DNA of 64,000 bases. It comes from Pseudidiomarina homiensis. GTDB lineage: Bacteria; Pseudomonadota; Gammaproteobacteria; Enterobacterales; Alteromonadaceae. The stretch lies in NCBI RefSeq assembly GCF_003987225.1, contig NZ_PIPX01000003.1, positions 124,001 through 188,000 of the forward strand, read 5' to 3'. The notes beneath the pieces were generated by a model. That model worked only from the letters and a program-made list of their open reading frames with translations, was not told where the DNA came from and did no database searches. The translations under genes were made by a program, and so were the position numbers. Positions 6,764 to 42,830 of the stretch are shown here, one piece after another (the stretch's first letter is position 1; each line of letters opens with the position of its first letter).

Positions 6764-6772
6764 GAGCTCCTT

Positions 6773-7966: not shown

Positions 7967-7988
7967 AAAGGGCGCTTCGGCGCCCTTT
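7967..7988. terminator. Rho-independent terminator, both directions
   Basis: A 9-bp stem AAAGGGCGC / GCGCCCTTT closes on a TTCG tetraloop. It lies between the convergent MetX-like gene and the TIGR03545 gene and has A and T flanks suited to either direction. Confidence 0.85.
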
Positions 7989-7994
7989 GCTAGT

Positions 7995-9770: not shown

Positions 9771-9774
9771 GTGC

Positions 9775-10281
9775 TTACCCCCTTAAGTTCGCATAAATCG
9801 TGTAGAAGCGATTCGCCTTGAGTGCCTGCACGATTTTTAGCTTATTAAACCAAGCCTGAATGCGCTGGCGATATTGACTCACAATCCAAAAACTAACCAG
9901 CGCCAGAATCGGTGCAAAGGCAAAACTAAGAACGAGGCTCCCTAAGGTAATCGTATGGTGAAATTGCACCACGCGCCAAAAGGCTGAATCGTACATATTC
10001 TGCCACACCGGCTGCCAGCTCTCCGCGGCTAAAATGGCAAAGCCAATCTTATGAAAAACAGGGTCTAACAGGTACGCAAGCCCCGAACAAAGGACAAAAC
10101 TCAAAATAAAGCCGGATAAATTGACACGGAAGAGGAGAGCAACAAGTAAAATCACCAGATTATGCACCCGCCATAACGGCGTGAACCCCATAATCATACC
10201 GAGCACAAAGGCAATCGCTAACGCCCATGCGCCGGACTCAGAATTGAGCGCTTTCAATAGCCTAGCTAATAAAGTCAGCAT
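9775..10281 (-). CDS. TIGR03546-family (DUF2062-like) small membrane protein
   Basis: About 168 residues with three or four membrane segments: WALAIAFVLGMIMGF, a stretch around VILLVALLFRVNL and LGSLVLSFAFAPILALVSFW. The GFTPLWRVHN loop resembles DUF2062 proteins. I chose the ATG at 10281 over an upstream in-frame ATG at 10317 because AGGGGG lies about seven bases before it. It is the first gene of a two-gene operon with the TIGR03545 protein, with which it normally co-occurs. The function is unknown and likely in the envelope. Confidence 0.78.
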   Translation of the reverse strand: MLTLLARLLKALNSESGAWALAIAFVLGMIMGFTPLWRVHNLVILLVALLFRVNLSGFILSFVLCSGLAYLLDPVFHKIGFAILAAESWQPVWQNMYDSAFWRVVQFHHTITLGSLVLSFAFAPILALVSFWIVSQYRQRIQAWFNKLKIVQALKANRFYTIYANLRG

Positions 10282-10429
10282 CCTTTTGCCCCCTAAGTTA
10301 ACGCTGAATTTAAGCATAGCTTAATGGTTTTTATCTGCTACCCTTTTTTGTAAAGCTTAGATGAAAATTTTACTTGTATTTTCGTCAATTTAGCCGTAAA
10401 TATGCGCGCAATTCTAGTGCGGAGTTTTT

Positions 10430-11896
10430 ATGCAAAATGCAGCCTTGATCATCCTTGATGATATTACCGATTGGCAACCTTATTACCCCAGCCAATCTAT
10501 CGTTACCGCGAGCGAGTATTTACTCCAGCAAAACGCCAAAGCACGTGCGCAAATTCTGAATTTGTGCGGTGACTTAAGCTATTTGTCGACCGGTTATTAT
10601 GTCAGTTTACTCGCCGAGGCGCGTGGCCAACGCGTGTTGCCATCGGTAACCACGATTAATGATCTGGCGAACTTCTCGCACTACCAACTGGTGCTGCCGG
10701 CCAATACCGACAAACAAATCAGTAAGTATCTTGGTCAGCAGTCCACCGCCGCAACACAACGTGTGCTGGTATGCTTTGGCCAAGCCGAGAACCCGCAGCT
10801 AAGCAGTTTCGCGCGACAAATTTTTGATCGTTATCCGTGCCCGATCCTATGGGTCGAGTTTAGCCATCAAGGGCGCTGGTTTATCACCAATATTGGTGCT
10901 GGTCACCTTGGTGAACTCGACGACGCCCAACAAACATTCTTCGGGAATGCGCTAGATAGCTTTAGCAAACGCGTCTGGCGTAAAGCGCGCACGCCAAAAG
11001 AGTATCGCTATGACTTGGCGATCTTGCATGATCCCGAAGAAGCGATTCCGACCAGTGACAAAAAGGCATTGCAGAAATTCATTAAGGCGGCGAAAGAAGC
11101 GGACATTGACGCGGAGCTTATTACGGCCGAGGACTACAATCGCTTGTTGGAGTTCGATGCGCTCTTTATTCGCGAAACCACGCGCATCAACCACTATACC
11201 TATCACTTTGCCAAGAAAGCTGAAGCGAATGGCATGGTGGTCATCGATACACCGCACTCGATCCTGCAATGCGCTAATAAAGTTTTCTTGAAGGAGTTGC
11301 TGGATAAGCACAACATTCCCACGCCGCGTACTGAGCTACTGCTGAGCCAACAATCCATTGACTATCAAGCGATTGGCGAACGACTCGGCTATCCAGTTGT
11401 GCTTAAGATCCCCGACGGGTCGTTCTCGATTGGGGTCGAAAAAGCGGAGAATATCGACGAACTTAAGGCGATCGCCGCCGATCTTTTTGAAAAATCGACG
11501 ATCTTATTGGCGCAAGAGTTTGTTCGTACAGAGTTCGACTGGCGCATTGGCGTACTCAATAATCGCCCCATTTACGCCTGCAAGTACTTGATGGCTCGCA
11601 ACCATTGGCAGATCTACAATCATGCGAGTGCCAGTAGTCGCGGTAAATCCGGCGGTTTTGAAACCGTTGGCGTACACCAAGTACCGAAAGAAGTCATCAA
11701 GACCGCGCTGCAAGCAACACGGCTCATCGGCGATGGACTGTACGGTGTCGACATGAAAGTTACCACCAAGGGACCGGTGATCATTGAAATTAACGATAAT
11801 CCGTCCATTGACGCCGGTGTTGAAGACTTACTCTTGGGTGACGAGCTTTATTACATCATTATGCGCGACTTCGCACGACGCTTGGATGAAAAGTGA
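10430..11896 (+). CDS. RimK-family ATP-grasp ligase with N-terminal RLAN domain
   Basis: A 488-residue protein. The first ~190 residues match the RLAN (RimK-like N-terminal) region (LNLCGDLSYLSTGYYVSLLA). The rest is an ATP-grasp ligase: FIRETTRINHYTY, CANKVFLKELLDKHNIPTPR, VVLKIPDGSFSIGV, a second ATP-binding strand LAQEFVRTEFDWRIGVL, and the metal-binding end VIIEINDNPSIDAGVED. ATP-grasp enzymes of this type join an amino acid to a peptide or protein carboxylate. A GGAG site precedes the ATG. The stop overlaps the GNAT gene by 4 bp (ATGA), so the two are translationally coupled and probably act on the same product. The substrate is unknown. Confidence 0.87.
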   Translation: MQNAALIILDDITDWQPYYPSQSIVTASEYLLQQNAKARAQILNLCGDLSYLSTGYYVSLLAEARGQRVLPSVTTINDLANFSHYQLVLPANTDKQISKYLGQQSTAATQRVLVCFGQAENPQLSSFARQIFDRYPCPILWVEFSHQGRWFITNIGAGHLGELDDAQQTFFGNALDSFSKRVWRKARTPKEYRYDLAILHDPEEAIPTSDKKALQKFIKAAKEADIDAELITAEDYNRLLEFDALFIRETTRINHYTYHFAKKAEANGMVVIDTPHSILQCANKVFLKELLDKHNIPTPRTELLLSQQSIDYQAIGERLGYPVVLKIPDGSFSIGVEKAENIDELKAIAADLFEKSTILLAQEFVRTEFDWRIGVLNNRPIYACKYLMARNHWQIYNHASASSRGKSGGFETVGVHQVPKEVIKTALQATRLIGDGLYGVDMKVTTKGPVIIEINDNPSIDAGVEDLLLGDELYYIIMRDFARRLDEK

Positions 11897-12345
11897 TGAC
11901 CCCGACATTGCGTGCCGCCACAACGAACGACTTAACTCAGTTGGTTGCCCTGGAGGCCGCAACTTTTGATTACAGTCAGCTTGGTCGGCAAAGTTTTCGC
12001 CGACTTATCACTAGCCCAAGTGCGCATCTATTTGTGCTCTATGAGCACCAACAACTGTTAGGGTACAGCCTGTTACTAACGCGTAAAAATAGTAAGGTGT
12101 GGCGTCTCTATTCCATCGCTGTCGCCGCTATTGCCCGCGGTAAGGGCGTTGGCAGGATGCTGTTAGAGCATGCCATAGAGCTGGCAAAAAGGCACGGCGC
12201 CACAGCGCTCTCGCTTGAGGTTAAAGTTGATAATCAAGCGGCGATAGAACTCTATCGCCGCTATGATTTTGAAGTTGTGGATTTACTTCCGGACTACTAT
12301 CCAGGACATGCCGACGGTTACCGCATGCGGTTAACATTTAGCTAG
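11893..12345 (+). CDS. GNAT-family N-acetyltransferase
   Basis: About 150 residues with the GNAT fold. It begins with LRAATTNDLTQLVALEAATF, has the acetyl-CoA pyrophosphate loop ARGKGVGRML in motif A, and has the C-terminal LEVKVDNQAAIELYRRYDFE typical of RimI-like enzymes. It acetylates an amine on a small molecule, peptide or protein N-terminus. The ATG overlaps the stop of the RLAN-RimK ligase (ATGA), and this pairing suggests it modifies or protects the ligase product. Its stop overlaps the convergent cysteine-synthase-like gene by 8 bp. Confidence 0.85.
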   Translation: MMTPTLRAATTNDLTQLVALEAATFDYSQLGRQSFRRLITSPSAHLFVLYEHQQLLGYSLLLTRKNSKVWRLYSIAVAAIARGKGVGRMLLEHAIELAKRHGATALSLEVKVDNQAAIELYRRYDFEVVDLLPDYYPGHADGYRMRLTFS

Positions 12346-13381
12346 GCTTGTACCACACCCGTTCGCCGCTATCACGATAGCGCGCCAACATTTCACTGAT
12401 AGGTTTAAGATCGAGGTTGAGACCGCGACTTTTCAAATAGTCTTTATTGTAGAGCTTACTCGCCGAGCGCTCGCCTAGGTCACAGGCAAACGTCACAATG
12501 GTTTTACCCGGTCCATGTAACGCCGCTGCTTGCAGCGCACCGGCTAAGTTGAGTGCCGAGCTACTGCCCAGCACAATCGCATCCTGATCACGCACATAAC
12601 GTGACAATGCCAGTAAGTCTTGGTCGGGTAAATTAACCGCAGCATCGACGCGCGCTTGTTTAAAGTTTTCGACCAGACGCATAATGCCGATGCCTTCAGT
12701 AAAAGACCCGCCATTGGCAACATACTCGCCCTGCTTCAAAAAACTATAAATACCAGAGCCATCGGGATCGGTAAGCCAAACTTGCACGTCAGGATTACGT
12801 TCTTTCAAATACATAGAGTTACCCGCAATAGTACCGCCAGTTCCGGCAACCGATACAAAAATATCCACTGCACCGTTGGTCTGCTGCCAGATTTCCGGCC
12901 CCGTGGTCAGGTAATGTGCTCGCGCGTTACTGGTATTTTCAAACTGGTTGGCCCACCAGTAATCATCACGGCTTTCGGCAAGTTTGCGGGCCGTATGATA
13001 AAAGTGGTTATCGTCGCGAAACGGCACCGGATCAACCGTCTTGAGTTGGGCACCATGCAAACTAATCATGCGCTCTTTTTCAGGAGATTGATCGTTTGGC
13101 ATCACCGCCAACATATTGAGGCCCAATGACCGCGCCACAATGGCTAAACCGATCCCGGTATTGCCTGCGGTGCCTTCAACCACTGTCATTCCTGGTTCCA
13201 GCTCGCCGCTCGCCAGCGCATCTTGAATCATTTGCAGCGCCGCACGATCTTTGATGGAGCCACCTGGGTTTTGCGACTCCAGTTTCAACCAGATGTCACA
13301 ACCGGTAAGTTCCGACAACGAACGGACTCTGATCATGTCAGTCTGACCAATCAAATCGATCGGACGATGCGCATTACGCAT
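12338..13381 (-). CDS. Cysteine synthase-like PLP enzyme
   Basis: A fold-type II PLP-dependent enzyme of 347 residues. The PLP lysine is Lys44 in QNPGGSIKDRAAL. The substrate loop is VVEGTAGNTGIGLAIVA, and the glycine-rich phosphate cradle is VSVAGTGGTIAG. The family makes cysteine from O-acetylserine and sulfide, or does the related beta-replacement with other nucleophiles. The C-terminal extension (YLKSRGLNLDLKPISEML) makes it longer than CysK/CysM, so it may be a specialised paralogue. An ACTCCT ribosome complement lies just upstream. No sulfate-assimilation genes are near. Confidence 0.85.
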   Translation of the reverse strand: MRNAHRPIDLIGQTDMIRVRSLSELTGCDIWLKLESQNPGGSIKDRAALQMIQDALASGELEPGMTVVEGTAGNTGIGLAIVARSLGLNMLAVMPNDQSPEKERMISLHGAQLKTVDPVPFRDDNHFYHTARKLAESRDDYWWANQFENTSNARAHYLTTGPEIWQQTNGAVDIFVSVAGTGGTIAGNSMYLKERNPDVQVWLTDPDGSGIYSFLKQGEYVANGGSFTEGIGIMRLVENFKQARVDAAVNLPDQDLLALSRYVRDQDAIVLGSSSALNLAGALQAAALHGPGKTIVTFACDLGERSASKLYNKDYLKSRGLNLDLKPISEMLARYRDSGERVWYKPS

Positions 13382-13417
13382 AAACTACTCCTTCACCGCT
13401 TACGTGTTTAGCTTGTT

Positions 13418-13783
13418 CTATTGTAACGGTTGCGCTTGAAAAGCGGTACCTTCGCACCACCAACGCGCGGTGCAACCACCGTCACTATCTTGCTGGCAAC
13501 GCTTTAATACGATGCGATTCGCTTGTTTGTCCGCAGCGGCTAATTTCATCGCAATCATGGCTTCTTCTTGCGACGCTTGGCCGTCCAGTAATGGCCGCTG
13601 GCAAGACTCGCCGCGCACCACACCTAAATCTACGAATTCAACGTCCGTACGCGACAATTCATAAGGTTGCATGAATTCAACCTGCTTACTGCGCTCAAGA
13701 TCCGCTGTTGGAAAGCGTTCGACCGACGTTGCGCAGCCAACTAACAAGCCGCTACTTAAAATCACCATCACTAGATTACGCAT
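13418..13783 (-). CDS. rcsF: RcsF-like outer-membrane lipoprotein
   Basis: A 121-residue lipoprotein with signal sequence and lipobox LLVGC (Cys17). The mature domain has four cysteines at 61, 96, 104 and 110. Their spacing of 35, 8 and 6 closely follows the disulfide cysteines of E. coli RcsF (spacing 35, 9, 6). VDLGVVRGESCQ and NRIVLKRCQ align with RcsF signatures. RcsF senses outer-membrane and peptidoglycan stress and signals to the Rcs phosphorelay. Other Rcs genes are not in the window, so in this organism it may act with other partners. Homology is inferred from these motifs. Confidence 0.78.
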   Translation of the reverse strand: MRNLVMVILSSGLLVGCATSVERFPTADLERSKQVEFMQPYELSRTDVEFVDLGVVRGESCQRPLLDGQASQEEAMIAMKLAAADKQANRIVLKRCQQDSDGGCTARWWCEGTAFQAQPLQ

Positions 13784-13929
13784 ACCTTGCCTCTTCCGTG
13801 TTCTTTATGAAACCCTACGGTGCTAATGATGAATAGTCTAGTCCGTTTCTGACTAAGCTAGAACTTTCCTGCGCTTAGCTGCATTTTTTGTCAGCTTAGC
13901 TACACTTAGTGGCAACCTGCGGAGGCGTT

Positions 13930-15045
13930 ATGAAAACTGAAGCTTATATCGCTCAATTGTTACAACAAGCGGATGTTCAACTGAATGGTTCCCGCCCTTG
14001 GGACCTGCAAGTACACAATACAGCCATGTATGCCGATGTTCTTGCACGAGGCAACCTTGGCCTTGGTGAGGCTTACATGCGCGGCGACTGGGACTGTGAG
14101 CAGCTCGATGTCCTCTTTCAGCGTATTTTACGCGCTAGTCTTGGTGAGCATATTCGCCCGTTGAAACTCCTCTGGCACCATTTGAAGGCACGCATTCTGA
14201 ATTTACAAAGTTCCCGTCGTGCCTGGCAAGTCGGTCAACACCATTACGATTTAGGGAATGACCTCTATCGAGCAATGCTTGATGAACGCATGGTCTACAC
14301 CTGCGGTTATTGGCAGCGCGCGCAAGATCTTGACGCCGCGCAACGCGATAAACTTGAGCTGGTCTGCCGTAAACTGCAACTCAAGCCTGGTATGCGCGTG
14401 CTCGATATCGGTTGTGGCTGGGGCAGCTTCATGAAGTATGCCGCCGAGAACTACGGTGTGCGATGCGTGGGACTTACCGTGTCAAAAGCCCAGGTTGAAT
14501 TGGGCCAGCAACTTTGTGAAGGCTTGCCCATTGAGTTTCGTTTGCAGGATTACCGCGACATCAATGAACCTTTTGATGCCGTCGTCAGCATTGGCATGTT
14601 CGAGCATGTTGGACAAAAGAATTACGCCACTTTTATGCGCGTTGCGCAGCGTTGCCTCGCCGATGAAGGACTGTTTTTATTGCATACGATTGGGCGTAAT
14701 CGCGACGTCCGCGGTACCGATCCGTGGATCAATCGCTATATTTTCCCGAATGGTGAACTACCTTGCCTTAGCCATATTGACGATGCTTCTCGGGAGCTCT
14801 TTTGTACGGAGGATATTCATAATTTTGGTGCCGACTACGACACCACGCTCATGGCCTGGTGCGCTAATTTTGAGCAACATTGGCCCGAATTACAGAAACA
14901 CTACAACGAAACCTTTTATCGGATGTGGCGTTACTACTTGCTTTCCTGCGCCGGAGCTTTCCGCGCGCGTGACTTACAAGTATGGCAATGGGTCTTCAGT
15001 AAGCATGGCTTGAGCCATGGCTATGAGCGACCGCAGCTCGACTAA
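13930..15045 (+). CDS. cfa: Cyclopropane-fatty-acyl-phospholipid synthase
   Basis: SAM-dependent enzyme that adds a methylene bridge to unsaturated acyl chains of membrane phospholipids. The SAM-binding motif VLDIGCGWGSFMKYAAE is near residue 157, and the family signature HYDLGNDLYRAMLDERMVYTC lies upstream of it. Further family motifs are FDAVVSIGMFEHVGQKNY and WINRYIFPNGELP. The ATG at 13930 is preceded by a strong GGAGG at 13921-13925, so I prefer it over an in-frame start seven codons upstream. It has 371 residues, the normal length, and stands alone on the plus strand. It is usually growth-phase induced, but no specific promoter is assigned. Confidence 0.94.
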   Translation: MKTEAYIAQLLQQADVQLNGSRPWDLQVHNTAMYADVLARGNLGLGEAYMRGDWDCEQLDVLFQRILRASLGEHIRPLKLLWHHLKARILNLQSSRRAWQVGQHHYDLGNDLYRAMLDERMVYTCGYWQRAQDLDAAQRDKLELVCRKLQLKPGMRVLDIGCGWGSFMKYAAENYGVRCVGLTVSKAQVELGQQLCEGLPIEFRLQDYRDINEPFDAVVSIGMFEHVGQKNYATFMRVAQRCLADEGLFLLHTIGRNRDVRGTDPWINRYIFPNGELPCLSHIDDASRELFCTEDIHNFGADYDTTLMAWCANFEQHWPELQKHYNETFYRMWRYYLLSCAGAFRARDLQVWQWVFSKHGLSHGYERPQLD

Positions 15046-32208: not shown

Positions 32209-32253
32209 TGGTGGCCCCTCCCAGATTTGAACTGGGGACCAACCGATTATGAG
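32209..32253. repeat. attL: 45-bp direct repeat of the tRNA 3' end
   Basis: Identical to 39868-39912. The next base differs (A here, T in the tRNA), which marks the end of the match. It contains the CCA end, acceptor 3' strand, T arm and half the anticodon arm of tRNA-Ile2, on the minus strand. It is not a functional tRNA. Confidence 0.92.
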
Positions 32254-32267
32254 ACGAAAACACCCTC

Positions 32268-32302
32268 TGTTCAGGCTGTTCGCCTATGAACAAACATGAA
32301 CA
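32268..32302. promoter_or_regulatory. Clustered TGTTC/TGAAC boxes beside attL
   Basis: Two TGTTC boxes (32268, 32277) are followed by two TGAAC boxes in the opposite orientation (32287, 32297), spaced 9-10 bp apart, about one helical turn. A fifth TGTTCA is at 32373. This arrangement, between attL and int, suits integrase arm sites, excisionase sites or an operator for int. Confidence 0.45.
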
Positions 32303-32444
32303 AATAATCCTATTTATATCTATTATTTTCATCAACTTAAATACACTACCGTCAATAACCCCTGTTTACAGTTGTTCACATTCTTACCTCGTTGTGCAAT
32401 TATCTAGCTACATTGCTGCTACATTTTCGATTGGTGAGTGCGAA

Positions 32445-33689
32445 ATGACGACCCTGACGACAACCCGCGTAAAGCTGACAAATTCCGTTTTGAAAGGCCT
32501 GAGTGAGCAGATTCGGCGGGTCAATGATACCGAGCTTCCAGGGTTCCACCTGCGGATCAGCGAGCGTGGCAAAATGACCTATTACCTGTTCTATCGCCTT
32601 CACGGTAAACAGGTCAATTTCAAGCTTGGCTCGCATCCTCAAATCACCCCAGCCCAAGCACGGGAAATGGCCAAGCAAAAAGCGGGAGAAGTCGCTAATG
32701 GTATCGACGTTCAGCAAGCACGAAAAGCGCAGCGCCTGCAAACCGAGCGCGACAAACTGACACGACTGGAAGCGTTCATCGAGCAGCGCTACCGTCCCTA
32801 CCAGGAAACGCGTAATCCCAAAACAGCAACTAAGCTCATTCAACAGTTTTACTCCGGCTTCCCTGAGCTCCTGCCATTACAGCTCTCAGACATAACCGCC
32901 GCCCGTATCGAAAACTGGCGTAATGCAAAGAAAAAGGGGGGGATGAAAGACGCGACCATTAACAGCTATGTCGCTACACTCAAGGCCGCTTTGAATCGAG
33001 CCGTCGACTGGGATCTTATTGACCATCACGATCTGCAGAAAGTCAAACCGCTTAAAAGTGATAATACCCGCGTGCGCTATCTCGAAGATGACGAAGAGCA
33101 GCGTCTTCGCGAAGCTCTGCGTGCTCGCGATCAGCGACTTAAAAATGAGCGCGATAGCGCCAATAAGTTTCGCCAGCAGCGTGGTTATCCCTTAAAACCT
33201 CCACTTTATGACTATCCCTATGCCGACCATTTAGAGCCCATCGTTTTATTAGCCATGAATACCGGACTACGTAAAAGCGAACTCCTCTCGCTCACCTGGG
33301 CGGACGTCGACATAAAGCGTAAGCACCTGACTATTTTGCCGAGTAACGCTAAATCCGGAAAGACCCGTCATGTTCCGCTTAATTCTCATGCGCTGAACGT
33401 TTTTAAGGGATGGGCCAAGCATCACGCGCATCAACACTATGTCTTTGAGCGCGCGCCTGGTGACAAGCTACAGGACGTAAAAAAGAGTTGGAATAAGGTG
33501 CTAGAAGAGGCGCAAATTGAGAACTTCCGCTTTCATGATTTACGTCACCACTTTGCAAGTCAACTTGCCATGCGCGGCGTGGATCTGAATACCATTCGTG
33601 AATTGCTCGGTCACCACAGTATGGAAATGACACTCCGATATGCTCACTTAAGACCTGAGAAAAAGACTGCCGCTGTCGATCTACTTTGA
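32445..33689 (+). CDS. int: Tyrosine recombinase (P4-type integrase)
   Basis: 414 residues. The N-terminal DUF4102-like arm-binding domain (LPGFHLRISERGKMTYYLFY, FKLGSHPQITPAQAREMA) is followed by a core-binding domain and a catalytic domain. The catalytic residues are visible: Arg in NTGLRKSELLSL, Lys in SNAKSGKTRHVPL, His-x-x-Arg in FHDLRHHFAS, His in LLGHHS and the Tyr nucleophile in LRYAHLRP. I start at the ATG at 32445, where family homology begins and GGTGAG precedes it. The longer frame from 32286 adds 53 hydrophobic residues unlike any integrase. It catalyses integration at the tRNA-Ile2 gene and lies at the end away from the intact tRNA. Confidence 0.95.
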   Translation: MTTLTTTRVKLTNSVLKGLSEQIRRVNDTELPGFHLRISERGKMTYYLFYRLHGKQVNFKLGSHPQITPAQAREMAKQKAGEVANGIDVQQARKAQRLQTERDKLTRLEAFIEQRYRPYQETRNPKTATKLIQQFYSGFPELLPLQLSDITAARIENWRNAKKKGGMKDATINSYVATLKAALNRAVDWDLIDHHDLQKVKPLKSDNTRVRYLEDDEEQRLREALRARDQRLKNERDSANKFRQQRGYPLKPPLYDYPYADHLEPIVLLAMNTGLRKSELLSLTWADVDIKRKHLTILPSNAKSGKTRHVPLNSHALNVFKGWAKHHAHQHYVFERAPGDKLQDVKKSWNKVLEEAQIENFRFHDLRHHFASQLAMRGVDLNTIRELLGHHSMEMTLRYAHLRPEKKTAAVDLL

Positions 33690-33898
33690 CCCTTTGGTTG
33701 ATAAACATCAAATTGATAAAATCGCGCATGCGGCCTGTTTACTATACCTTGGCTAGCGGTAATTGCCGCAAATAGATCCTGACTAAGCGCTACCACTCAG
33801 CCAGGATGATTTAATAGTCTGCGTTATCTTTGCTGGTAATTTATTACCGTCTGACATTTCGGACACGTGTGCAGAGCGAAGAACTTATTCGCCACCCT

Positions 33899-34390
33899 CT
33901 AAATTCGCTCTCGATCTTCCATAACAAGCTTCTTCCTACCTTCAGTGAGATCCCAGAGAAGCGTCAGGCTTGGCGCTTTATATTTCTCTTCACTATAAAA
34001 TATTTTAAGGTATTCATAATCGCTCCTATGGGCATAAAGCTCATCGCAAAGCCGCCGCCTTTCGGCTAGAAAGAAACTGTGCAAGCGATCCTGAGCCGCA
34101 GCGAGTCGCGACATATTTTTGGTAATCACCTCGTAAATACCAAATGCTTTAAAGGTATGGTAGCCGCCGAAAGCAAATCCAGCGCCCATAAAAGAATACA
34201 TGACAGGTGGGTAATGTTGCCTCATTAGGTAGTAACTGAGAAAGAGGCCTCCAAGAGCAAAAATACATACTGCAATTAATTCGCAATCATCCAGTCTGTT
34301 ATCTATCAACTTACGCCAGTGTCGAATCTCATAATCGTAAGAGTCGTTTACCGCCTTGTGCAGAAAATTGTAAAGTTTTTCATGTTCCAT
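33899..34390 (-). CDS. Unknown protein with two membrane segments
   Basis: 163 residues. A polar N-terminal helix precedes two membrane segments (CELIAVCIFALGGLFLSYYL and VMYSFMGAGFAFGGYHTF). The remaining ~75 residues are charged and cytoplasmic (RRRLCDELYAHRSDYEYLKI). AAGGAGA lies at good spacing before the ATG, so translation is likely. It is the only gene of the element on the minus strand and is divergent from the 302-residue unknown gene. I do not recognise the family. Possible roles are phage exclusion at the membrane or immunity, by analogy with cargo genes in similar elements only. Confidence 0.7.
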   Translation of the reverse strand: MEHEKLYNFLHKAVNDSYDYEIRHWRKLIDNRLDDCELIAVCIFALGGLFLSYYLMRQHYPPVMYSFMGAGFAFGGYHTFKAFGIYEVITKNMSRLAAAQDRLHSFFLAERRRLCDELYAHRSDYEYLKIFYSEEKYKAPSLTLLWDLTEGRKKLVMEDRERI

Positions 34391-34554
34391 GAATAAATCT
34401 CCTTTTTAAATCTTTCAAGTATTTTCAACGCAAGCCAGACGGTAAAGTCAGCACATACACTTTGTTACCTTAGTGCCGCTCACCATTGTTTTATAGCAAC
34501 GATTCACTCATTATGTCTCTAAAAAAATAAGAGATAAACAAGGATGAACCGATA

Positions 34555-35463
34555 ATGGCAGCAATTAACTTTTTACGACTCGGAGAGAAAGCGCTCGAAC
34601 GAATCGCTAATGAGGCCGATATATACTCACTGGTAAAAGGCGGACATATAAGGTTATGGGCTGAAATTCCGCGCACTTGGGCATTGCTGACCTTACCTGA
34701 TGAAGCTGAAACGGCAGTTGCAAAAGCGGTAGTTGAAGGACTCGTGATGTTGCGCAATGCAGATGCGTTAAGACTTCTTGAAAACGGTGTAATCAAAACA
34801 GATACCGTTTACGCATTTGTTGGAGAGAGTATAAAAGCGACTTCTTTTGATAACCCTTTTTCCTCCGAGCTACCAATTGACTTTATAAAAAACTGGGCAC
34901 CTGAGAGATATAGCAACGAGAGACTAACGTTATACAGAGCAAAGTTAAATGCTGAAGAGGCAAAAACCGGGGGGGCTATATTCAAAGAGATGCTTGAGGG
35001 GTCAACAGCTCACAACCAGGAATTTAAAGATGCATTTGCGAACCTTCAAAAGATATTTGCTTCACAACAGCAAATAACGATACAAACACGAGCGATCGAA
35101 ATCAAAAGGTTGCAAGTACTGGTTGACTCAAGCATTACGCAGTTCAATCCTGCACTTCCTAAAACGACACCGACCACAAATGAGGTTTTTTTATCGCAGT
35201 ACTCAATCCCCTCGTATCCGATTATTCTAGACACTCTAGAATACCTGCGTGTTAACCCATCGATTAAACCCGCGAACTTATGGAAAAAGCTTCGAGAAGA
35301 GCATAATCGCTCTTCCCCAAAGGTTATCGACGTCAACGAGTCAATTATCGATATTTCACAAAATGACATGGCGCATTATGACGCCAACAACAATCGTGAA
35401 GAGATGAGCAAGAAACGCTATTCCAACTTGGTTGCCGAACTAAGAAAACTTCTCGATTCATAA
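34555..35463 (+). CDS. Unknown 302-residue element protein
   Basis: A soluble, mostly helical protein with no recognised motif. The N-terminal third (LGEKALERIANEADIYSLVK) is followed by an amphipathic region rich in Glu and Lys, a central stretch FASQQQITIQTRAIEIKRLQ that could form a coiled coil, and a C-terminal part (LDTLEYLRVNPSIKPANLWK) that looks like a small helical domain. AAGGA lies 10 bases before the ATG. A weak promoter TTGTTT-17-CATTAT lies upstream, and a strong terminator follows directly, so it is a single-gene transcript. Its place between integrase and replication genes suggests cargo or regulation. Confidence 0.65.
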   Translation: MAAINFLRLGEKALERIANEADIYSLVKGGHIRLWAEIPRTWALLTLPDEAETAVAKAVVEGLVMLRNADALRLLENGVIKTDTVYAFVGESIKATSFDNPFSSELPIDFIKNWAPERYSNERLTLYRAKLNAEEAKTGGAIFKEMLEGSTAHNQEFKDAFANLQKIFASQQQITIQTRAIEIKRLQVLVDSSITQFNPALPKTTPTTNEVFLSQYSIPSYPIILDTLEYLRVNPSIKPANLWKKLREEHNRSSPKVIDVNESIIDISQNDMAHYDANNNREEMSKKRYSNLVAELRKLLDS

Positions 35464-35470
35464 GAAAAGA

Positions 35471-35496
35471 GCCCGGGATTTTGCCCGGGCACTTTT
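35471..35496 (+). terminator. Rho-independent terminator of the 302-residue gene
   Basis: Stem GCCCGGG / CCCGGGC with loop ATTTTG, followed by ACTTTT, 7 bp after the stop codon. Confidence 0.8.
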
Positions 35497-35546
35497 CGAT
35501 CTCGTAAGTTTCGTCATGAACCAGTACATCACATGAGGAAACTACT

Positions 35547-35783
35547 ATGTCACTACACAAACGTGCATACAGTGAGAGCGAAGCCTCACAGTACATTTGC
35601 ATGAGTCGCTCATTTTTACGTCAAGCGCGTATGAACGGGCCTCTCGCAAAAAGAACGCCAGGACCACGTTATATAAGAGTCGGGCGCGCAATTCGCTACT
35701 TAGTTGACGATCTTGACGCCTGGCTCGAACAACATTGCAAGCACCAATCCCCTCTTCATGCTCTGGAGGGTGGACATGACTGA
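35547..35783 (+). CDS. AlpA-like excisionase / HTH regulator
   Basis: 78 residues with a winged-helix MerR-like HTH: YSESEASQYICMSRSFLRQA is the helix-turn-helix and the wing region is GPRYIRVGRAIRYLVDDLDA. This matches AlpA and small excisionase proteins of integrative elements, which bend DNA at att sites and control int or rep expression. GAGGAA precedes the ATG. It opens a tight operon: the next gene overlaps it by 8 bp, and the replication gene overlaps that one by 4 bp. Confidence 0.88.
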   Translation: MSLHKRAYSESEASQYICMSRSFLRQARMNGPLAKRTPGPRYIRVGRAIRYLVDDLDAWLEQHCKHQSPLHALEGGHD

Positions 35784-36012
35784 ATCAAAAAAAGAAGCGA
35801 TTCTTGAGCAGTTCAAGCATTTCCCAAAGCTTCTCATCTGCTTGGACGTATGTAGCCGATCCGGATCGGTGATTTTCGGAGAGAACCCACCTGAGTTAAG
35901 CATGTCTTTACTCGCCGAACTGCGAGCAGAAGGGAAAATCGAAAGAAAGTTTCGAGAAGTTCACGGAATACATTGGTGCGAGGTCACTCCGAAGTCAGGG
36001 AGAAGACCATGA
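35776..36012 (+). CDS. Small helical protein upstream of the replication initiator
   Basis: 78 residues (MTESKKEAILEQFKHFPKLL onward), likely a small winged-helix fold judging by the helix-helix-strand pattern and the ending HGIHWCEVTP. The ATG at 35776 has GGAGGG at a 5-base spacing, inside the end of the AlpA-like gene. Its stop overlaps the rep start (ATGA). I do not recognise a family. Position suggests a replication accessory or copy-control protein. Confidence 0.65.
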   Translation: MTESKKEAILEQFKHFPKLLICLDVCSRSGSVIFGENPPELSMSLLAELRAEGKIERKFREVHGIHWCEVTPKSGRRP

Positions 36013-37637
36013 ACCAAAAAGACATGCAACGGCTAGAAGCTCTTTACCCTGATTTAGTTCCATTTTCAGAAATGATTGAAATTGATGACGCTAAATTTAT
36101 TCTTCAGAAGCTATCCGTATTTCCCCGCCCAAGTTGGCCACGGGTCCTTAGACGCTATAGAGGAAAGGGTTCGAAAAGAGAACGGAACCTATTTCTATAC
36201 GAATTCGCTGAAGAAACGCGAAACTCACTTCCTAGCTGTATAAAAAGCCTCGATATAGATTCGGAAGAAATAAACACGATTGCTAAATATCAGCTTGGTA
36301 GAATCACTGAGATAGCTAAAGGGGTGCTATACGAAGTAGAGGATCATTTTCACGCACCCTATACCTATACGGGGAGAGCCAATTCCGACAAGATACTGTA
36401 TACCAGTCTGCGACTGTATATGGAAAGGTTAAGACTGATTCCACCAGATGCCTATACCCATCAGAATTTCGCTTCTTGTATCCGGAAAATGCTTTGTATA
36501 AAAACATGGAGACGTCAGTTACACGTCGAACTGAAGCGAGCTAGAGAAAAGTTCTTTATATCCCTTGGCGAAGTTAACCAATCTAACGGCTTGTATATCA
36601 GTAATTTCGGCGCAGAAAAGCGAAAACATGAAAAAATTGCCAATCAGGAATTCCTTGCCTCTACCTATATGAAAAATTCAAAAGGGGAGATTTTCAGTCT
36701 ACTTAAGCTCTCAAATGCAACGGTTGCAAACCCGATTAACCGAAGAAATGAATTAATGGCTCGACTGGCCGGAGCAGAGCAAGAAGCCAACCGACGAGGA
36801 GATATAGGGTTATTTTTAACGATCACCTGCCCTAGCCGGTTTCACTCTACTCTATCTACCACAGGTCAGCAGAACCCCAAATGGGATGGAAGTACCCCCA
36901 AGCAGGCGAGTCAGTATTTATCTAAACTTTGGCAAAAGATCCGCGCAGCGTTAAGCCGACAACAAATACGTATATATGGAATTCGTATTAGCGAGCCACA
37001 ACATGACGCTACGCCTCATTGGCACATGCTGGTCTTTGTTGCGCCTGAATATACTCAAAACTTAATCGAAACAGCGAAAGAATACGCTTTGCAAGATAGT
37101 CCGAATGAACCAGGCGCAACCAAATATCGCTTTGATGTCGAGATTATAGACAAACGGAAAGGCACCGCAACTTCATATATAGCAAAGTACATATCAAAGA
37201 ATATTGATGGTTTTGGACTAGAGCATGTGGACAACGAGATTCTAATAAAGGCATTTCGCGTCGAAGCCTGGGCAAGCTGTTGGGGGATCCGACAATTTCA
37301 GTCATTTGGCATGCCATCGATCACCGGCTGGCGAGAGATCCGAAAAGTAGAACGGGAGTTGCCCGAGTCTTCTCCTTTTCATTTAACACACAAAGCGGCT
37401 GATTCAGGGGACTTCGCGGGGTATATAAGAGCAATGGGGGGAGTTTGTATTCCAGCAAAGGAGCGCTCAATTAAGTTGTTATACGATGCTCAATTCGCTC
37501 AAGAGTCGGGAGAGGTCAAACTCAGCCAGTATACGCACGAGCCCGTATTTAAAGTTGTTGGGTTACAAGCTGAAGGCAAAAGGCTCCTTACTAGAAGCGA
37601 GCGCTGGCAGCGTTGCTCTGAGACTGGGGCGGCATAG
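36009..37637 (+). CDS. HUH replication initiator, P2 gpA type
   Basis: 542 residues, matching the phage replication endonuclease GPA family. The HUH metal motif is PHWHMLVFV (His337 and His339). The two catalytic tyrosines are Tyr390 and Tyr394 in SYIAKYISKNIDG, the Y-x3-Y spacing of P2 gpA. An upstream conserved block is TITCPSRFHSTL. It nicks one strand at an origin and starts rolling-circle replication, usually with host Rep helicase. Start at 36009 by ATGA overlap with the upstream gene. Its presence implies the excised element replicates autonomously. It is complete and has no frameshift. Confidence 0.92.
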   Translation: MNQKDMQRLEALYPDLVPFSEMIEIDDAKFILQKLSVFPRPSWPRVLRRYRGKGSKRERNLFLYEFAEETRNSLPSCIKSLDIDSEEINTIAKYQLGRITEIAKGVLYEVEDHFHAPYTYTGRANSDKILYTSLRLYMERLRLIPPDAYTHQNFASCIRKMLCIKTWRRQLHVELKRAREKFFISLGEVNQSNGLYISNFGAEKRKHEKIANQEFLASTYMKNSKGEIFSLLKLSNATVANPINRRNELMARLAGAEQEANRRGDIGLFLTITCPSRFHSTLSTTGQQNPKWDGSTPKQASQYLSKLWQKIRAALSRQQIRIYGIRISEPQHDATPHWHMLVFVAPEYTQNLIETAKEYALQDSPNEPGATKYRFDVEIIDKRKGTATSYIAKYISKNIDGFGLEHVDNEILIKAFRVEAWASCWGIRQFQSFGMPSITGWREIRKVERELPESSPFHLTHKAADSGDFAGYIRAMGGVCIPAKERSIKLLYDAQFAQESGEVKLSQYTHEPVFKVVGLQAEGKRLLTRSERWQRCSETGAA

Positions 37638-37710
37638 CCGCCTAACTTGGAGTACTGGGAATAACTGTACTAATATAGAGCCAAACAATAAACCAAAAGC
37701 AAAGGACAGC

Positions 37711-39228
37711 GTGTTGACTACCTCCAAAGAAGATACCCATCAAAATGCTGATATTGATAAACCTGAAATAGTGATAGCTTTCGTGGCTGCTGTGGGAACA
37801 GACATTAACCATTTCTCTAATTTAATAACGCAGGAGCTTTCATTGTATGACTATCGTACAGAGGAAGTAAGAATCTCTCGACAATTTTTGGAATTGTTGA
37901 GTCAACCTCCCAACAACGCAACCAAGCTCCAGGAGGTTGATCACTACATGACTTTAGGTAATCGCGTTAGAAAGTTAACTGAAAATAATGCAGCATTAGC
38001 ATATAGCGCGATTACACTCATAAATAAAAGGCGAAAAGAGCTATCAACAGAAGAAGCACCTCTTAATAGATACGCATGGCTTATAAGATCTTTAAAACAC
38101 CCCGAGGAAGTCAAAGCTCTTAGAGAAGCATATGGGGATAGTTTATATATAATTGGTATTCATTCCGATGAGAAGGTTAGAAAGAAAAACCTTGAAAAGC
38201 TTAGAAAAAAAGCTGATCAAGACGGTTTTGTCGACAAGTTAATCAAGCGAGATGAGGACGAGCTTGAGGGGCATGGTCAGCATACTAGTGATACTTTTCA
38301 CTTATCAGACTTTTTCATCGACTCTGGCGAAACACTCGATAAGAACAAATATGATATTGAACGCGTATTTGAACTTATATTTGATAATCCATTTTTGACG
38401 CCTACATTCGATGAGTATGCCATGTTTATGGCATTTTCCGCATCTACCCGCTCTGCAGATCTATCTAGGCAAGTCGGAGCGGTGATAGCAAAGGATGAAA
38501 ATATAATTTCCACTGGGGCTAATGATGTTCCAAGAGCGTCAGGGGGGCTTTACTGGCCTATAAATACTAAATCTCATGGGGTTATAGATGAAGACCAAGG
38601 CCGGGACTATAAGGTCGGTTATGACTCAAATAGAAAGGTTTTAGACGAGATAATAGCTGATCTGTTAGTAAAGTTAAAAATAGAAAACTCGGAGGAGAAT
38701 AAGGAAATAATAAAAAGCAGCAAGTTAGGTGACATAACTGAATATGGAAGAGTGGTTCATGCTGAAATGGAAGCTATACTTTCTTGCGGTAGAACCAATA
38801 ATACAACGGTAGGAACGACGCTTTACTGCACCACTTTTCCCTGCCACAACTGTGCCAAGCATATTATTGCTTCAGGTATCATGAAGGTTTTTTATGTTGA
38901 GCCCTATTCGAAAAGTCGCGCTTTGGAGTTCCACAAAGATTCTGTGACTACTTGCAAGAAGAAAGGTGATAAAGTGCTGTTCGCGCCTTTTGTTGGAGTT
39001 GGTCCAAAAAACTTCCTAAATTTTTTCTCGTTGAAGCTGGGTTCTGGCGCGGTAGTGAGAAGAAAAGACAAAAATACCGGCAAAAAATTGAGTTGGTCCA
39101 AAGAATCCGCTAAGCTCAGAATCGAGCCTGATGTTATGAACTATCTAACTAATGAAGAGTTTGCTCTTCACATTGCGAGTGAGACTTTAGATAAGTATAA
39201 CAAGGCTTGTCAAAACGAGGGAGAATAG
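37711..39228 (+). CDS. AvcD/DcdV-type anti-phage dCTP deaminase
   Basis: 505 residues in two domains. The N-terminal P-loop-kinase-like domain has VIAFVAAVGTDINHF (residues ~21-35), a NRYAWLIRSLKHPEEVKAL core and LYIIGIHSDEKVRKKNL. The C-terminal cytidine/dCMP deaminase domain has zinc ligands His350 in VVHAEMEAI (with Glu352 as proton shuttle) and Cys378 and Cys381 in FPCHNCAKHI. This architecture matches AvcD/DcdV, which deaminates dCTP/dCMP on phage infection and starves phage DNA synthesis. The start is GTG (37711) or TTG (37714) after AGGA, with TTG the better spaced. It is 73 bp after rep and is followed by a 47-residue gene. Activity is predicted, not shown. Confidence 0.9.
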   Translation: MLTTSKEDTHQNADIDKPEIVIAFVAAVGTDINHFSNLITQELSLYDYRTEEVRISRQFLELLSQPPNNATKLQEVDHYMTLGNRVRKLTENNAALAYSAITLINKRRKELSTEEAPLNRYAWLIRSLKHPEEVKALREAYGDSLYIIGIHSDEKVRKKNLEKLRKKADQDGFVDKLIKRDEDELEGHGQHTSDTFHLSDFFIDSGETLDKNKYDIERVFELIFDNPFLTPTFDEYAMFMAFSASTRSADLSRQVGAVIAKDENIISTGANDVPRASGGLYWPINTKSHGVIDEDQGRDYKVGYDSNRKVLDEIIADLLVKLKIENSEENKEIIKSSKLGDITEYGRVVHAEMEAILSCGRTNNTTVGTTLYCTTFPCHNCAKHIIASGIMKVFYVEPYSKSRALEFHKDSVTTCKKKGDKVLFAPFVGVGPKNFLNFFSLKLGSGAVVRRKDKNTGKKLSWSKESAKLRIEPDVMNYLTNEEFALHIASETLDKYNKACQNEGE

Positions 39229-39230
39229 AG

Positions 39231-39374
39231 ATGTGTGTTCAAACTAGAAAACAACAACTTATCGAACATTTGAAAGATGCAGATGACAGAGTTGCCCGTC
39301 GGCCACAATGGCAGAAAGCTCTTATCCAAAAGAAAAAAGATATGCTGTTTAAAGCACAGGCTCAACCTGCTTGA
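39231..39374 (+). CDS. 47-residue basic protein downstream of AvcD
   Basis: An ATG 2 bp after the AvcD stop follows a GGGAG ribosome site in the end of that gene. The 47-residue product starts MCVQTRKQQLIEHL and ends KKDMLFKAQAQPA. It is highly charged and predicted helical, and a strong terminator lies 22 bp after the stop. Tight coupling, ribosome site and terminator argue for a real gene. No family recognised. It could regulate AvcD, the role that AvcI RNA has in other systems, or be unrelated. Confidence 0.6.
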   Translation: MCVQTRKQQLIEHLKDADDRVARRPQWQKALIQKKKDMLFKAQAQPA

Positions 39375-39396
39375 GCCATTCACTACAAACTTAGGG

Positions 39397-39430
39397 AGGT
39401 AACAACTACCTAAAGAGTTGTTACCTTTTA
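39397..39430 (+). terminator. Rho-independent terminator of the rep-AvcD operon
   Basis: A perfect 11-bp stem AGGTAACAACT / AGTTGTTACCT with an 8-base loop is followed by TTT. It ends the plus-strand operon of the element. Confidence 0.88.
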
Positions 39431-39867
39431 GTTACTCTTAAGCGTTCACACGGCTTAGTTAAACCGAGCTCCACCTCTGCCGTTTCTTATTTTCACTCAA
39501 GTAATGAATATTATTGAAGACTATTTGCTTTGGTCTTATCGCAATCTTGCTGCTCTCAAGTGTCAACTTCTCTTAAGATGAGACAGATGCCACTAGAGCT
39601 TTCTGAGAGGATAACCCTCAGGAGACGAAAATAAAAAATCGAAATTTACCGAAACGCAGACCTTCTCGATTCTTAATTAAGCTGACCAAGATCGAAATCT
39701 CGACTTCCTCGTTAGTGAGACACTACCTGCTAGCCTATCCTACCCATCTCAATCACCAAACTTGATAAACCAATAAAGAAACCCTGACCTGCTACAAATT
39801 AGCTACAGGAAGCGTTTTTTAGGATACATACGTTAGTGCCTGCTAACTGTATAGAGTTTGTTTGTAT
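39431..39867. other. Non-coding right end of the element
   Basis: No gene is visible. The stretch is A+T rich and contains a small bulged stem CTGAG-AGG / CC-CTCAG (39603-39621) and two copies of ATCGAAATYT (39638-39647 and 39691-39700). By position it may hold integrase arm sites, the gpA nicking origin, or a small RNA. None of these can be confirmed by eye. Confidence 0.4.
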
Positions 39868-39912
39868 TGGTGGCCCCTCCCAGATTTGAACTGGGGACCA
39901 ACCGATTATGAG
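39868..39912. repeat. attR: 45-bp repeat in the tRNA 3' end
   Basis: Identical to 32209-32253. It runs from the CCA end of the tRNA (39868) through the T arm and variable loop into the anticodon. Typical attachment site of a tyrosine integrase. Confidence 0.92.
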
Positions 39913-39943
39913 TCGGCTGCTCTAACCACTGAGCTAAGGGGCC
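39868..39943 (-). tRNA. tRNA-Ile2 with CAT anticodon (needs lysidine)
   Basis: A complete 76-base cloverleaf including encoded CCA. The anticodon CAT is at positions 34-36, and stem 27-31/39-43 pairs with one G-U. The sequence is close to E. coli ileX, with acceptor GGCCCCT and AGGGGCC, so it is the AUA-reading isoleucine tRNA whose C34 is changed to lysidine by TilS, rather than an elongator methionine tRNA. The 3' 45 bases are the right attachment site, and the tRNA stays intact after integration. Confidence 0.88.
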
Positions 39944-40988: not shown

Positions 40989-42830
40989 TTACTCGTCCAA
41001 GAACGACTTCAGCTGTTCTGAACGGCTTGGATGACGAAGCTTGCGTAACGCTTTCGCTTCAATCTGACGGATCCGCTCTCGGGTTACGTCAAACTGTTTA
41101 CCCACTTCTTCAAGCGTATGGTCAGTATTCATGTCGATACCGAAACGCATGCGCAGAACTTTCGCTTCACGCTGCGTTAAGCCACCCAACACACCGCGAA
41201 CGGCATTTTTAAGGCTTTCCGAAGTCGCAGAATCCACTGGCAAATCGAGGGTTGTATCCTCGATGAAGTCACCAAGATGCGAATCTTCATCGTCACCAAT
41301 CGGTGTTTCCATGGAGATCGGCTCTTTGGCAATCTTCAAGACCTTACGGATCTTGTCTTCAGGCATGACCATGCGCTCCGCCAACTCTTCTGGCGACGGC
41401 TCACGGCCCATTTCTTGTAGCATTTGACGCGAAATACGGTTCAGCTTATTGATCGTTTCGATCATGTGCACCGGAATACGGATGGTCCGCGCTTGGTCAG
41501 CAATCGAACGCGTGATCGCCTGACGAATCCACCAGGTCGCATAAGTTGAGAACTTATAACCACGGCGATATTCGAACTTATCCACGGCTTTCATCAAACC
41601 GATGTTACCTTCTTGGATCAAGTCCAAGAACTGCAGGCCACGGTTGGTGTATTTTTTCGCAATCGAAATAACCAAACGTAAGTTCGCTTCGACCATTTCT
41701 TTCTTGGCGCGACGCGCTTTCGCTTCACCGATCGACATACGACGGTTGATGTCTTTCACTTTGGCAATAGTAAGTCCGGTTTCGACCTCAACTTCTGCCA
41801 GTTTGGCGACACAACGTTCAAGCTCGGTGCGTAGTTCAGCGATGCCATCGGCGTAGCTTTCGCCACTTTCGATCGCTGCTTCCAGCCACGCTGTGCTGTT
41901 TTCATTACCGGCGAACGCTTTCATGAAGGCGCGCTTCGGCATGTTTGCCTGCTCGACGCACATTTTCATGATCAAACGTTCTTGCACACGGACACGATGC
42001 ATCATGTCGCGCATGTCTTTCACTAAACGATCAAACTGCTTAGGTACTAAGCGGAATTGTTTAAACAGATCGCTTAGTGCGTCAATGTCTTTCCGCGCTT
42101 TAGCGTTGTCACGGCCATGCTTGCTGATCGCCGCGCGGGTCTTTTCGTACTGGTCACGAAGCTCACCGAATTTTTGCCGTGCGAACTCAGGATCGATGCC
42201 GCCTTCATTGGCGTCATCATCATCGTCGTCATCGTCATCGGCATCATCGTCTTCGTCTTCGAGTTCATCTTCAGATAACTCAGAGCCGATGTGCGTTGCC
42301 GCGACCGGTGCTTCGTCGACTTCGTTAGGATCGATAAAACCAGAAATGATGTCGGTGAGACGCATTTCTTCGGCTTCACATTGATCCCACTGATCGAGTA
42401 AGAAGTTAATGGCTTCAGGATATTCGGCGACTGAGCATTGAACTTGGTTAATACCTTCTTCAATGCGCTTGGCTATGTCGATTTCGCCTTCGCGTGTTAA
42501 CAACTCGACCGTACCCATTTCACGCATGTACATACGCACAGGGTCTGTCGTGCGGCCTAATTCGCCGTCAACACTAGCGAGCGCTGCCGCCGCTGCTTCC
42601 GCAGCATCTTCGTCTGCGGTGTCTTCGCTCATCATCAAGTCATCGGCATCGGGGGCGTTTTCAAACACCTTGATCCCCATGTCGTTAATCATGGCGATGA
42701 TATCTTCAATTTGATCGGAATCTACAATCTCAGAAGGTAAATGATCGTTGACCTCGGCAAAAGTCAGGTAACCCTGCTCTTTTCCTTTGGCAATAAGAAT
42801 TCTGAGTTGCGATTGACGACTCTGCTGCAT
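40989..42830 (-). CDS. rpoD: RNA polymerase sigma-70 factor
   Basis: 613 residues, the normal length. Region 1.1 is at the start ([19 protein letters not shown]), and the group-1 non-conserved region contains an Asp/Glu run near residues 190-215. Regions 2.3/2.4 are in [20 protein letters not shown], and the HTH of region 4.2 is in [20 protein letters not shown]. This is the housekeeping sigma factor. Upstream is a DUF3192 lipoprotein gene instead of the usual dnaG, with a terminator between, so rpoD must have its own promoter. The acidic run also occurs in E. coli RpoD, so it is not unusual. Confidence 0.98.

Follow-up and report, generated by a model that had tools for sequence, protein, structure and literature searches.

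A tRNA-integrated element of Pseudidiomarina homiensis with its own gpA replication module and an AvcD-type defence gene resembles minimal phage satellites

To our knowledge, many small genomic islands that carry defence genes have no known way to move. Here we analyze a 7.7-kb element at positions 32209–39912 of a 64,000-nucleotide stretch of DNA from Pseudidiomarina homiensis (contig NZ_PIPX01000003.1), the host assembly of which comprises 2.61 Mb in 6 contigs; we refer to the whole stretch as the window and use its numbering throughout. The integrative element is real and looks intact, encodes a rolling-circle module of its own together with a defence gene, and is one of a coherent family.

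Among described systems, the element can be set beside the PICMI satellites of Vibrionaceae, which, in the available text of their report, are small (PICMI115 is 6.1 kb), lack capsid and packaging genes, are associated with rolling-circle-like concatemers and carry an integrase gene, alpA, a small gene, a replication gene, a defence hotspot between that gene and the far attachment (att) site, and the far att itself (PMC10803314). The present element has the same outline. It differs from PICMI in that gpA and an associated origin stand in place of a DUF3987/DUF5906 primase, and tRNA integration sites in place of a fis site; phage packaging, which for PICMI has been demonstrated with a virulent phage (PMC10803314), is proposed here by analogy. 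Tested against PICMI models, the element has co-located int and AlpA, no primase (no Pfam match to DUF3987 or DUF5906 in eight open reading frames (ORFs), gpA being present instead) and no fis site, a feature that is typical of PICMI and optional in one model. Because the primase and the fis site are absent, the element is not a PICMI, although it works like minimal satellites of that kind.

The replication module is instead akin to that of phages P2 and 186 (Peduoviridae), with which the element shares the gpA family, the origin core and a hairpin before the nick motif; phage 186 likewise integrates at a tRNA-Ile gene, according to sequence-record notes. The gpA protein of the element is, however, 542 aa long as against 694–828 aa and falls in a separate clade, the integrase and AlpA are different, and cI, cII, ogr and structural genes are absent; a test for a P2-like prophage recovered no capsid, terminase or tail genes. 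P4-like satellites, as far as the accessible part of their description goes, also combine a tyrosine integrase, AlpA, defence cargo and small size, but our element has gpA instead of alpha, and none of its eight ORFs gave a Pfam match to psu, sid, delta or alpha (PMC8628076). The available text on IntY/tmRNA islands such as I55, which have been shown to move in phage particles, describes a tyrosine integrase, AlpA, defence cargo and no transfer genes, as here; those islands differ in size (<20 to >70 kb), in their 14-bp tmRNA repeats and in their RadC, YqaJ and Gp2-like core (PMC12595487). The features of the present element are as follows.

32209..32256, minus strand: left att copy, the 45-bp 3' part of the tRNA followed by one mismatch and two matching bases
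32407..32424, plus strand: predicted left arm sites, two GCTACAT repeats 11 bp apart, ~198 bp from the start of the left att
32445..33689, plus strand: int, encoding a tyrosine integrase that includes arm-binding and SAM-like domains (PF00589, PF13356, PF13102)
33899..34390, minus strand: orf163, first-slot cargo with hydrophobic stretches in its sequence
34555..35463, plus strand: orf302, conserved core gene
35547..35783, plus strand: alpA, helix-turn-helix protein and predicted excisionase (PF12728; phrog_66 excisionase)
35776..36012, plus strand: orf78, small ORF overlapping the ends of alpA and gpA
36009..37637, plus strand: gpA, rolling-circle initiator with ATG start, HWH and two-tyrosine motifs intact
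37628..37642, plus strand: hairpin GGCGGC-ATA-GCCGCC, directly before the origin core
37646..37670, plus strand: predicted double-strand (nick) origin CTTGGAGTACTGGGAATAACTGTAC behind the hairpin, a variant of the family core
37711..39228, plus strand: avcD, avcD-type anti-phage dCTP deaminase, GTG start likely
39231..39374, plus strand: 47-aa ORF 3' of avcD, no match (scanned as 39207–39374)
39791..39807, plus strand: predicted right arm sites, two GCTACA repeats 11 bp apart, lying 77 bp inside the right att
39868..39943, minus strand: intact tRNA-Ile(CAT), whose 3' 45 bp (39868–39912) form the right att copy

The element is bounded by exact 45-bp repeats of the 3' end of the tRNA-Ile(CAT) gene: the segments 32209–32256 and 39868–39915 agree at 47 of 48 positions, 45 of them consecutive, and start 7659 bp apart. 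ARAGORN labels the tRNA at 39868–39943 as Met(CAT); the five Escherichia coli matches listed for it (88.2–89.5% identity) are all annotated as tRNA-Ile and rpoD lies near at 40989–42830, so that the Ile2 identity is well supported. The G+C content is 43.7% within the element versus 49.6% in its flanks. An earlier note on this DNA had described 45-bp direct repeats, an intact tRNA-Ile2 gene at one end, the order int, cargo, AlpA-xis, gpA and AvcD, and no packaging, capsid or conjugation gene. All of this is borne out by the exact repeats, by the complete tRNA gene, by matches to PF00589, PF12728, PF05840 and NF041025, and by the eight ORFs scanned, none of which matched a packaging, capsid or relaxase/mobilization family (an origin of transfer, oriT, was not searched for). 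The empty tRNA-Ile2 sites that the same note had proposed to look for exist in three genomes of the genus (G018, G022 and G020), where the sequence to the left of att joins a single tRNA copy directly. The flanks of the G018 site align at 90% over 1,551 bp on the left and at 95% on the right, meeting at one repeat copy, and the alignments of G018 and G022 were inspected at letter level. Beyond these three, the 21 same-genus loci include two (L025, L026) that lack the neighbouring gene and hold no island of comparable size, and 16 that were not resolvable within the 1.5 kb compared. Two same-genus genomes have second copies of the tRNA-Ile repeat (98–100%) on other contigs (G019:C6:2108–2155 and G009:C5:5014–5060), from which we judge that other islands probably use the same site.

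Inside both ends lie paired short repeats in the layout expected for arm-type integrase sites, which we predict them to be. In the window and ten att-bounded relatives, these pairs fall ~183–200 bp inside the left att and ~62–79 bp inside the right att, with repeats 11 bp apart that are mostly GCTACA-like (GCTATAAA in L109 and L106, GGACTTAC in L115); most were flagged by a script, and the right-hand pairs in the window and in L106 were read by eye. A tandem ATGAACAAAC lies near the left att at 32286–32306, and TGAAC/GTTCA repeats are similarly placed in relatives; these could be AlpA sites.

The genes run in the order int, orf163 (minus strand), orf302, alpA, orf78, gpA and avcD. The integrase matches PF00589 (E 1.3e-34) and is 42–57% identical to the full-length integrases of relatives; its start was set at ATG 32445, and searches used a query from 32439. 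AlpA matches PF12728 at 27.0 bits, exactly at the cut-off, and shows 45–54% identity in the family alignment. For gpA, the matches are strong (PF05840, 3.9e-84, 283 bits; phrog_91, 1e-145), and the residues H337, H339, Y390 and Y394 are invariant across 15 aligned sequences. The avcD product reaches 464 bits against NF041025, passing the curated cut-off of 400, matches the PADLOC dCTPase model at 1.3e-159 and solved dCMP deaminases, and has HAE and PCxxC zinc motifs visible in its sequence, all of which likens it to the AvcID/DCD deaminases as the available text presents them (PMC10511110). Library scans gave no convincing family match for orf163, orf302, orf78 or the last small ORF: orf163 has only a weak CrcB-like match below the cut-off, and orf302 has no match in the family libraries scanned and an unusable single-sequence structure model (pLDDT 35). 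The orf78 product is possibly a winged-helix protein, as judged from a low-confidence model (pLDDT 60), and leave-one-out detected no homology between it and the small ORFs of relatives.

Directly behind gpA lies the predicted origin, the GGAGT of which begins 12 bases past the gpA end. The DNA fold of 37600–37680 has a z of −2.14, and a hairpin is found at the corresponding position in phage 186. The top k-mer among 12 elements, CTTGGAGTTCTGT, occurs in 11 of them, with longer forms (to AAATAA) in 8; the twelfth is the window, which carries the variant CTTGGAGTACTGGGAATAACTGTAC. The annotated rep_origin of phage 186 (28576) falls within CTCGGAGTTCTGTCAATAACTGTAC. In 20 of 22 stretches, some of them close kin (L103/L105, L116/L118), GGAGTNCTGNNAATAA is found free of mismatches, one copy each and on the gpA strand, the exceptions being L100 and L101; 16 stretches have the core −15 to +21 bases from the gpA end and 4 have it 291 to 1,493 bases after. 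A shuffled 64-kb window contains 0.055 matches to the core with one mismatch allowed. The window thus has a P2-type origin core beside the gpA stop, in the variant form GGAGTACTGGGAATAA, which occurs 0 times in the viral contigs. Idiomarina sp. ATCH4 (L068, 487–13713) shares this variant and a closely related gpA: its 13-kb island at the same tRNA site holds the 3' part of gpA only (78% identical), without the family integrase, and is likely a remnant or composite. In PM2 (L237), the annotated cleavage site (2253/2254) reads CTTG^CAGAGTTCACAATAA and does not match the origin pattern; a one-mismatch match occurs at 3511, inside the replication gene and away from the cleavage site.

To place the element among relatives, we used gpA as the query against 394 genomes of the same order, 98 of which matched at 1e-50. 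We compared 20 stretches, namely 18 of the 20 best non-self gpA rows and the same-genus L100 and L101; G304 and a second G375 row were left out, the latter being added later as L229. The family integrase, orf302 (~300 aa), AlpA and a short gpA, which the window carries in this order, occur together in 12 of the 20 loci (L102, L103, L104, L106, L107, L109, L113, L115, L116, L117, L118 and L119), with the qualifications that gpA of L116 is in two pieces, the integrase of L119 is short, the ORF taken as orf302 in L113 does not pass leave-one-out, and the AlpA of L109, missed by ORF picking, was taken from the AlpA profile survey. The family profile table is descriptive only, because most of the tabulated sequences also built the profiles. 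Independent support comes from profiles built from the other members, which find the orf302 (1.4e-17), AlpA (2.4e-30) and gpA (5.5e-160) of the window. Repeats of 45–47 bp, 7,849 to 12,801 bp apart, bound 10 of the 12 family loci at tRNA-Arg (CCG, CCT) or CAT tRNAs; no att repeats were found in L107 and L119. Two further loci (L105, L114) are cut by contig ends, and L230, a contig from the genome of L105, has the family integrase, orf302 and AlpA; L108, L110 and L111 carry other integrases, and L112 is a gpA piece only. Neither L100 nor L101 belongs to the family: they are ~5-kb elements (8595–14271 and 6416–11425) in same-genus genomes, bounded by 26-bp tmRNA repeats, with a different integrase and a gpA that has no origin core. 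Of the 394 genomes, the AlpA profile finds 18, which belong to 12 of 114 genera (1 of 26 genomes in the window's own genus), all at 3.1e-29 or below (cut-off 1e-12); 12 of these genomes supplied profile rows and 6 are further finds. The elements at L116 (9176–10759) and L118 (9349–10932) are near copies in different genomes, with gpA split in the former and whole in the latter.

The gpA tree, which comprises 32 proteins with few P2-like, PM2, PM2-like and inovirus-like rows and thus a small set of phage gpA, groups the 19 element rows, the window included, in a clade of their own (support 95/97), with L100, L101 and the viral contigs L122 and L129 as its sister group. The exact place of the window within the tree is unsure, since it has the longest branch. 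In L225 (11454–15299) and L226 (10293–14290), the family int-orf302-AlpA set is followed by a VapE-like protein in the place of gpA (PF05272, 1.8e-44 and 1.2e-41), and L227 and L228 have AlpA without the family integrase, orf302 or gpA; because of these loci, the integration backbone and the replication gene look exchangeable. The L225 and L226 regions contain many dispersed repeats, which perhaps form a cassette array. Predicted viral contigs can carry pieces of the backbone as well, given that L122 has AlpA and gpA on a 52-kb contig (with no family integrase in the 14.8 kb examined) and L124 has a family-like integrase and AlpA on a contig that also holds two tail-gene matches.

In the available text, P2-like phages have a defence hotspot beside gpA (PMC9122126). 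There are 56 cargo ORFs of at least 140 aa, 20 of which we scanned with PADLOC; 19 of these lie between gpA and the tRNA, in 12 elements, and 1 is a first-slot ORF (L107). Matches at 1e-3 were obtained for 12 of the 20, as listed below.

L105: AvcD
L102: cll, beta
L113: PD-Lambda-2_B
L115: AbiLi, AbiLii
L118: PDC-M66A, B
L119: HerA, DUF4297
L109: PbeA-like (4.4e-15)
L107: AriA/NsnB-like ATPase

The other 8 ORFs (two each in L103 and L116, one each in L104, L106, L113 and L117) had no PADLOC match. In 7 of 12 elements, or 8 of 13 with the window, an ORF in the gpA-tRNA slot matches a known defence family, a raw count with no background rate beside it. A thymidylate-synthase-like protein (PF00303; 13315–14355) lies in the defence slot of L113 beside the PD-Lambda-2_B-like protein and is perhaps another nucleotide-pool defence.

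From integration at a site that is empty in relatives, intact core genes, predicted arm sites, an origin, a family and a cargo slot, we infer how the element may excise, replicate, be packaged by a helper and defend its P. homiensis host. Int and AlpA would recombine the two 45-bp att copies and release a 7,659-bp circle; gpA would nick the origin behind its own gene (37646–37670) and drive rolling-circle replication with host enzymes, which would also serve excision. Both steps are well supported by the gene content and sites. A helper phage would then most likely package the circles or concatemers, by analogy with PICMI, which is the ground for proposing transfer in a helper and satellite status, and AvcD would guard the host against other phages through depletion of dC nucleotides. 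We hold this reading, a structurally intact small tRNA-integrated element that combines all four activities, with moderate confidence. The earlier note's statement that the element must use another agent to excise, replicate and move is reasonable as far as transfer goes, but the element brings genes and sites of its own for excision and replication. Two other points of the note fare better: the int-alpA-gpA set recurs in relatives with different cargo, the subject of a search that the note had proposed, and for a class that the note held might be poorly described, small gpA-type satellites, we found no name in the open-licence literature, judged mostly by abstracts. Nor was the family set found within a complete prophage, the partial exceptions being L124 and L122. 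If confirmed, the family would add a satellite-like class whose replication gene is of a type common with phages but of its own lineage, and in which gpA or VapE-like modules are apparently exchanged behind one integration backbone. Its uniform backbone, predicted origin, mapped att arms and cargo slot make excision, replication and helper use testable.

Several results weigh against this reading, together with the defence count that stands without a background rate. Matches to the P2 capsid are not enriched in AlpA-positive genomes (1 of 18 versus 77 of 376 others, p 0.22), nor are matches to Zot (3 of 18 versus 40 of 376, p 0.43), in tests that take the 394 genomes as an identical set across searches and ignore relatedness. 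We did not recognize a family element among the viral contigs examined. The best matches to the 186-type cos in 11 elements have 5–7 mismatches, like shuffles, and a common packaging signal was likewise rejected: the 11-mers that recur in 5 or more of 11 elements (L116 being dropped as a near copy of L118; 5 shuffles each gave 0) are origin, arm and tRNA sites plus, by inspection, a few coding or AT-rich ones. Finally, no AvcI-like RNA was identified: the gap between gpA and avcD is 73 nt, below the minimum AvcI length of ~171 nt given in the available text (PMC10511110), the fold of 37480–37715 has a z of −0.33, and no Rfam match lies there.

The alternative that survives best, plausible though unlikely, is passive spread by generalized transduction, vesicles or transformation, without a dedicated helper, the element persisting as its defence gene pays. 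It would account for the lack of a packaging gene, of a common packaging signal and of a helper correlation, as well as for the finding that 1 of 26 genomes in the genus carries the element. Set against it are the conserved replication gene with its own origin, which suggests selection for amplification, and the fact that known minimal satellites are likewise without packaging genes.

More doubtful is that the element depends, as a satellite, on filamentous phages or other small phages without tails, which would package gpA-made single strands or circles with no size limit. Three phage-like viral contigs combine a gpA relative with an exact copy of the family-type origin: L234, PM2-like by layout, which spans 10 kb, has a 61-bp terminal repeat and matches a major head protein, and the inovirus-like L235 and L236, of which L236 encodes a Zot-like assembly protein. 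The gpA/origin module thus crosses very different phage types. Moreover, the host genome has no Terminase_6N and no P2 capsid match (PF05125, whole genome), and its assembly includes a separate 6,598-bp contig (L238, G000:C5) with filamentous-phage genes, among them a Zot-like assembly protein and, by inspection, coat-like and ssDNA-binding-like ORFs; this contig is a possible resident inovirus. However, L238 has no origin core with two or fewer mismatches, no exact stretch of >14 bases in common with the element and a replication protein of a different type, the host genome having one gpA only; the gpA of L234–L236 falls outside the element clade, and Zot is not enriched. A widespread satellite family that replicates by a P2-type rolling circle, rides in filamentous or other small non-tailed phages of the same gpA/origin type and defends against competing tailed phages is a long shot; if it were real, particle length would set no size limit and a packaging gene would be unneeded. 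Among viral contigs more broadly, a single-sequence search found no gpA relatives, and the best 80 of 587 from an alignment search are mostly larger gpA, many with P2-type structural matches.

It is also improbable that the element is an integrative mobilizable element moved by conjugation of a helper, in which transfer would start at gpA or at a hidden oriT. HUH-type initiators are generally known to be related to relaxases, and such elements commonly integrate at tRNA genes, but the scan of the eight ORFs described above yielded no relaxase or mobilization family.

A P2-like prophage remnant is scarcely credible: gpA and the origin are of P2/186 type, and circles with a P2-type early region only do exist (Kc166BP, L098, 6.0 kb; p1878-9k, L099, 9.1 kb), but the core genes are intact, the same short layout recurs across genera, a 47-aa TerL-like match in L108 is the only structural match in the stretches compared, and gpA forms a separate clade, albeit in a tree with few phage gpA. 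The two circles have no structural genes annotated; the origin motif is absent from p1878-9k and from ACA1 and is present in Kc166BP.

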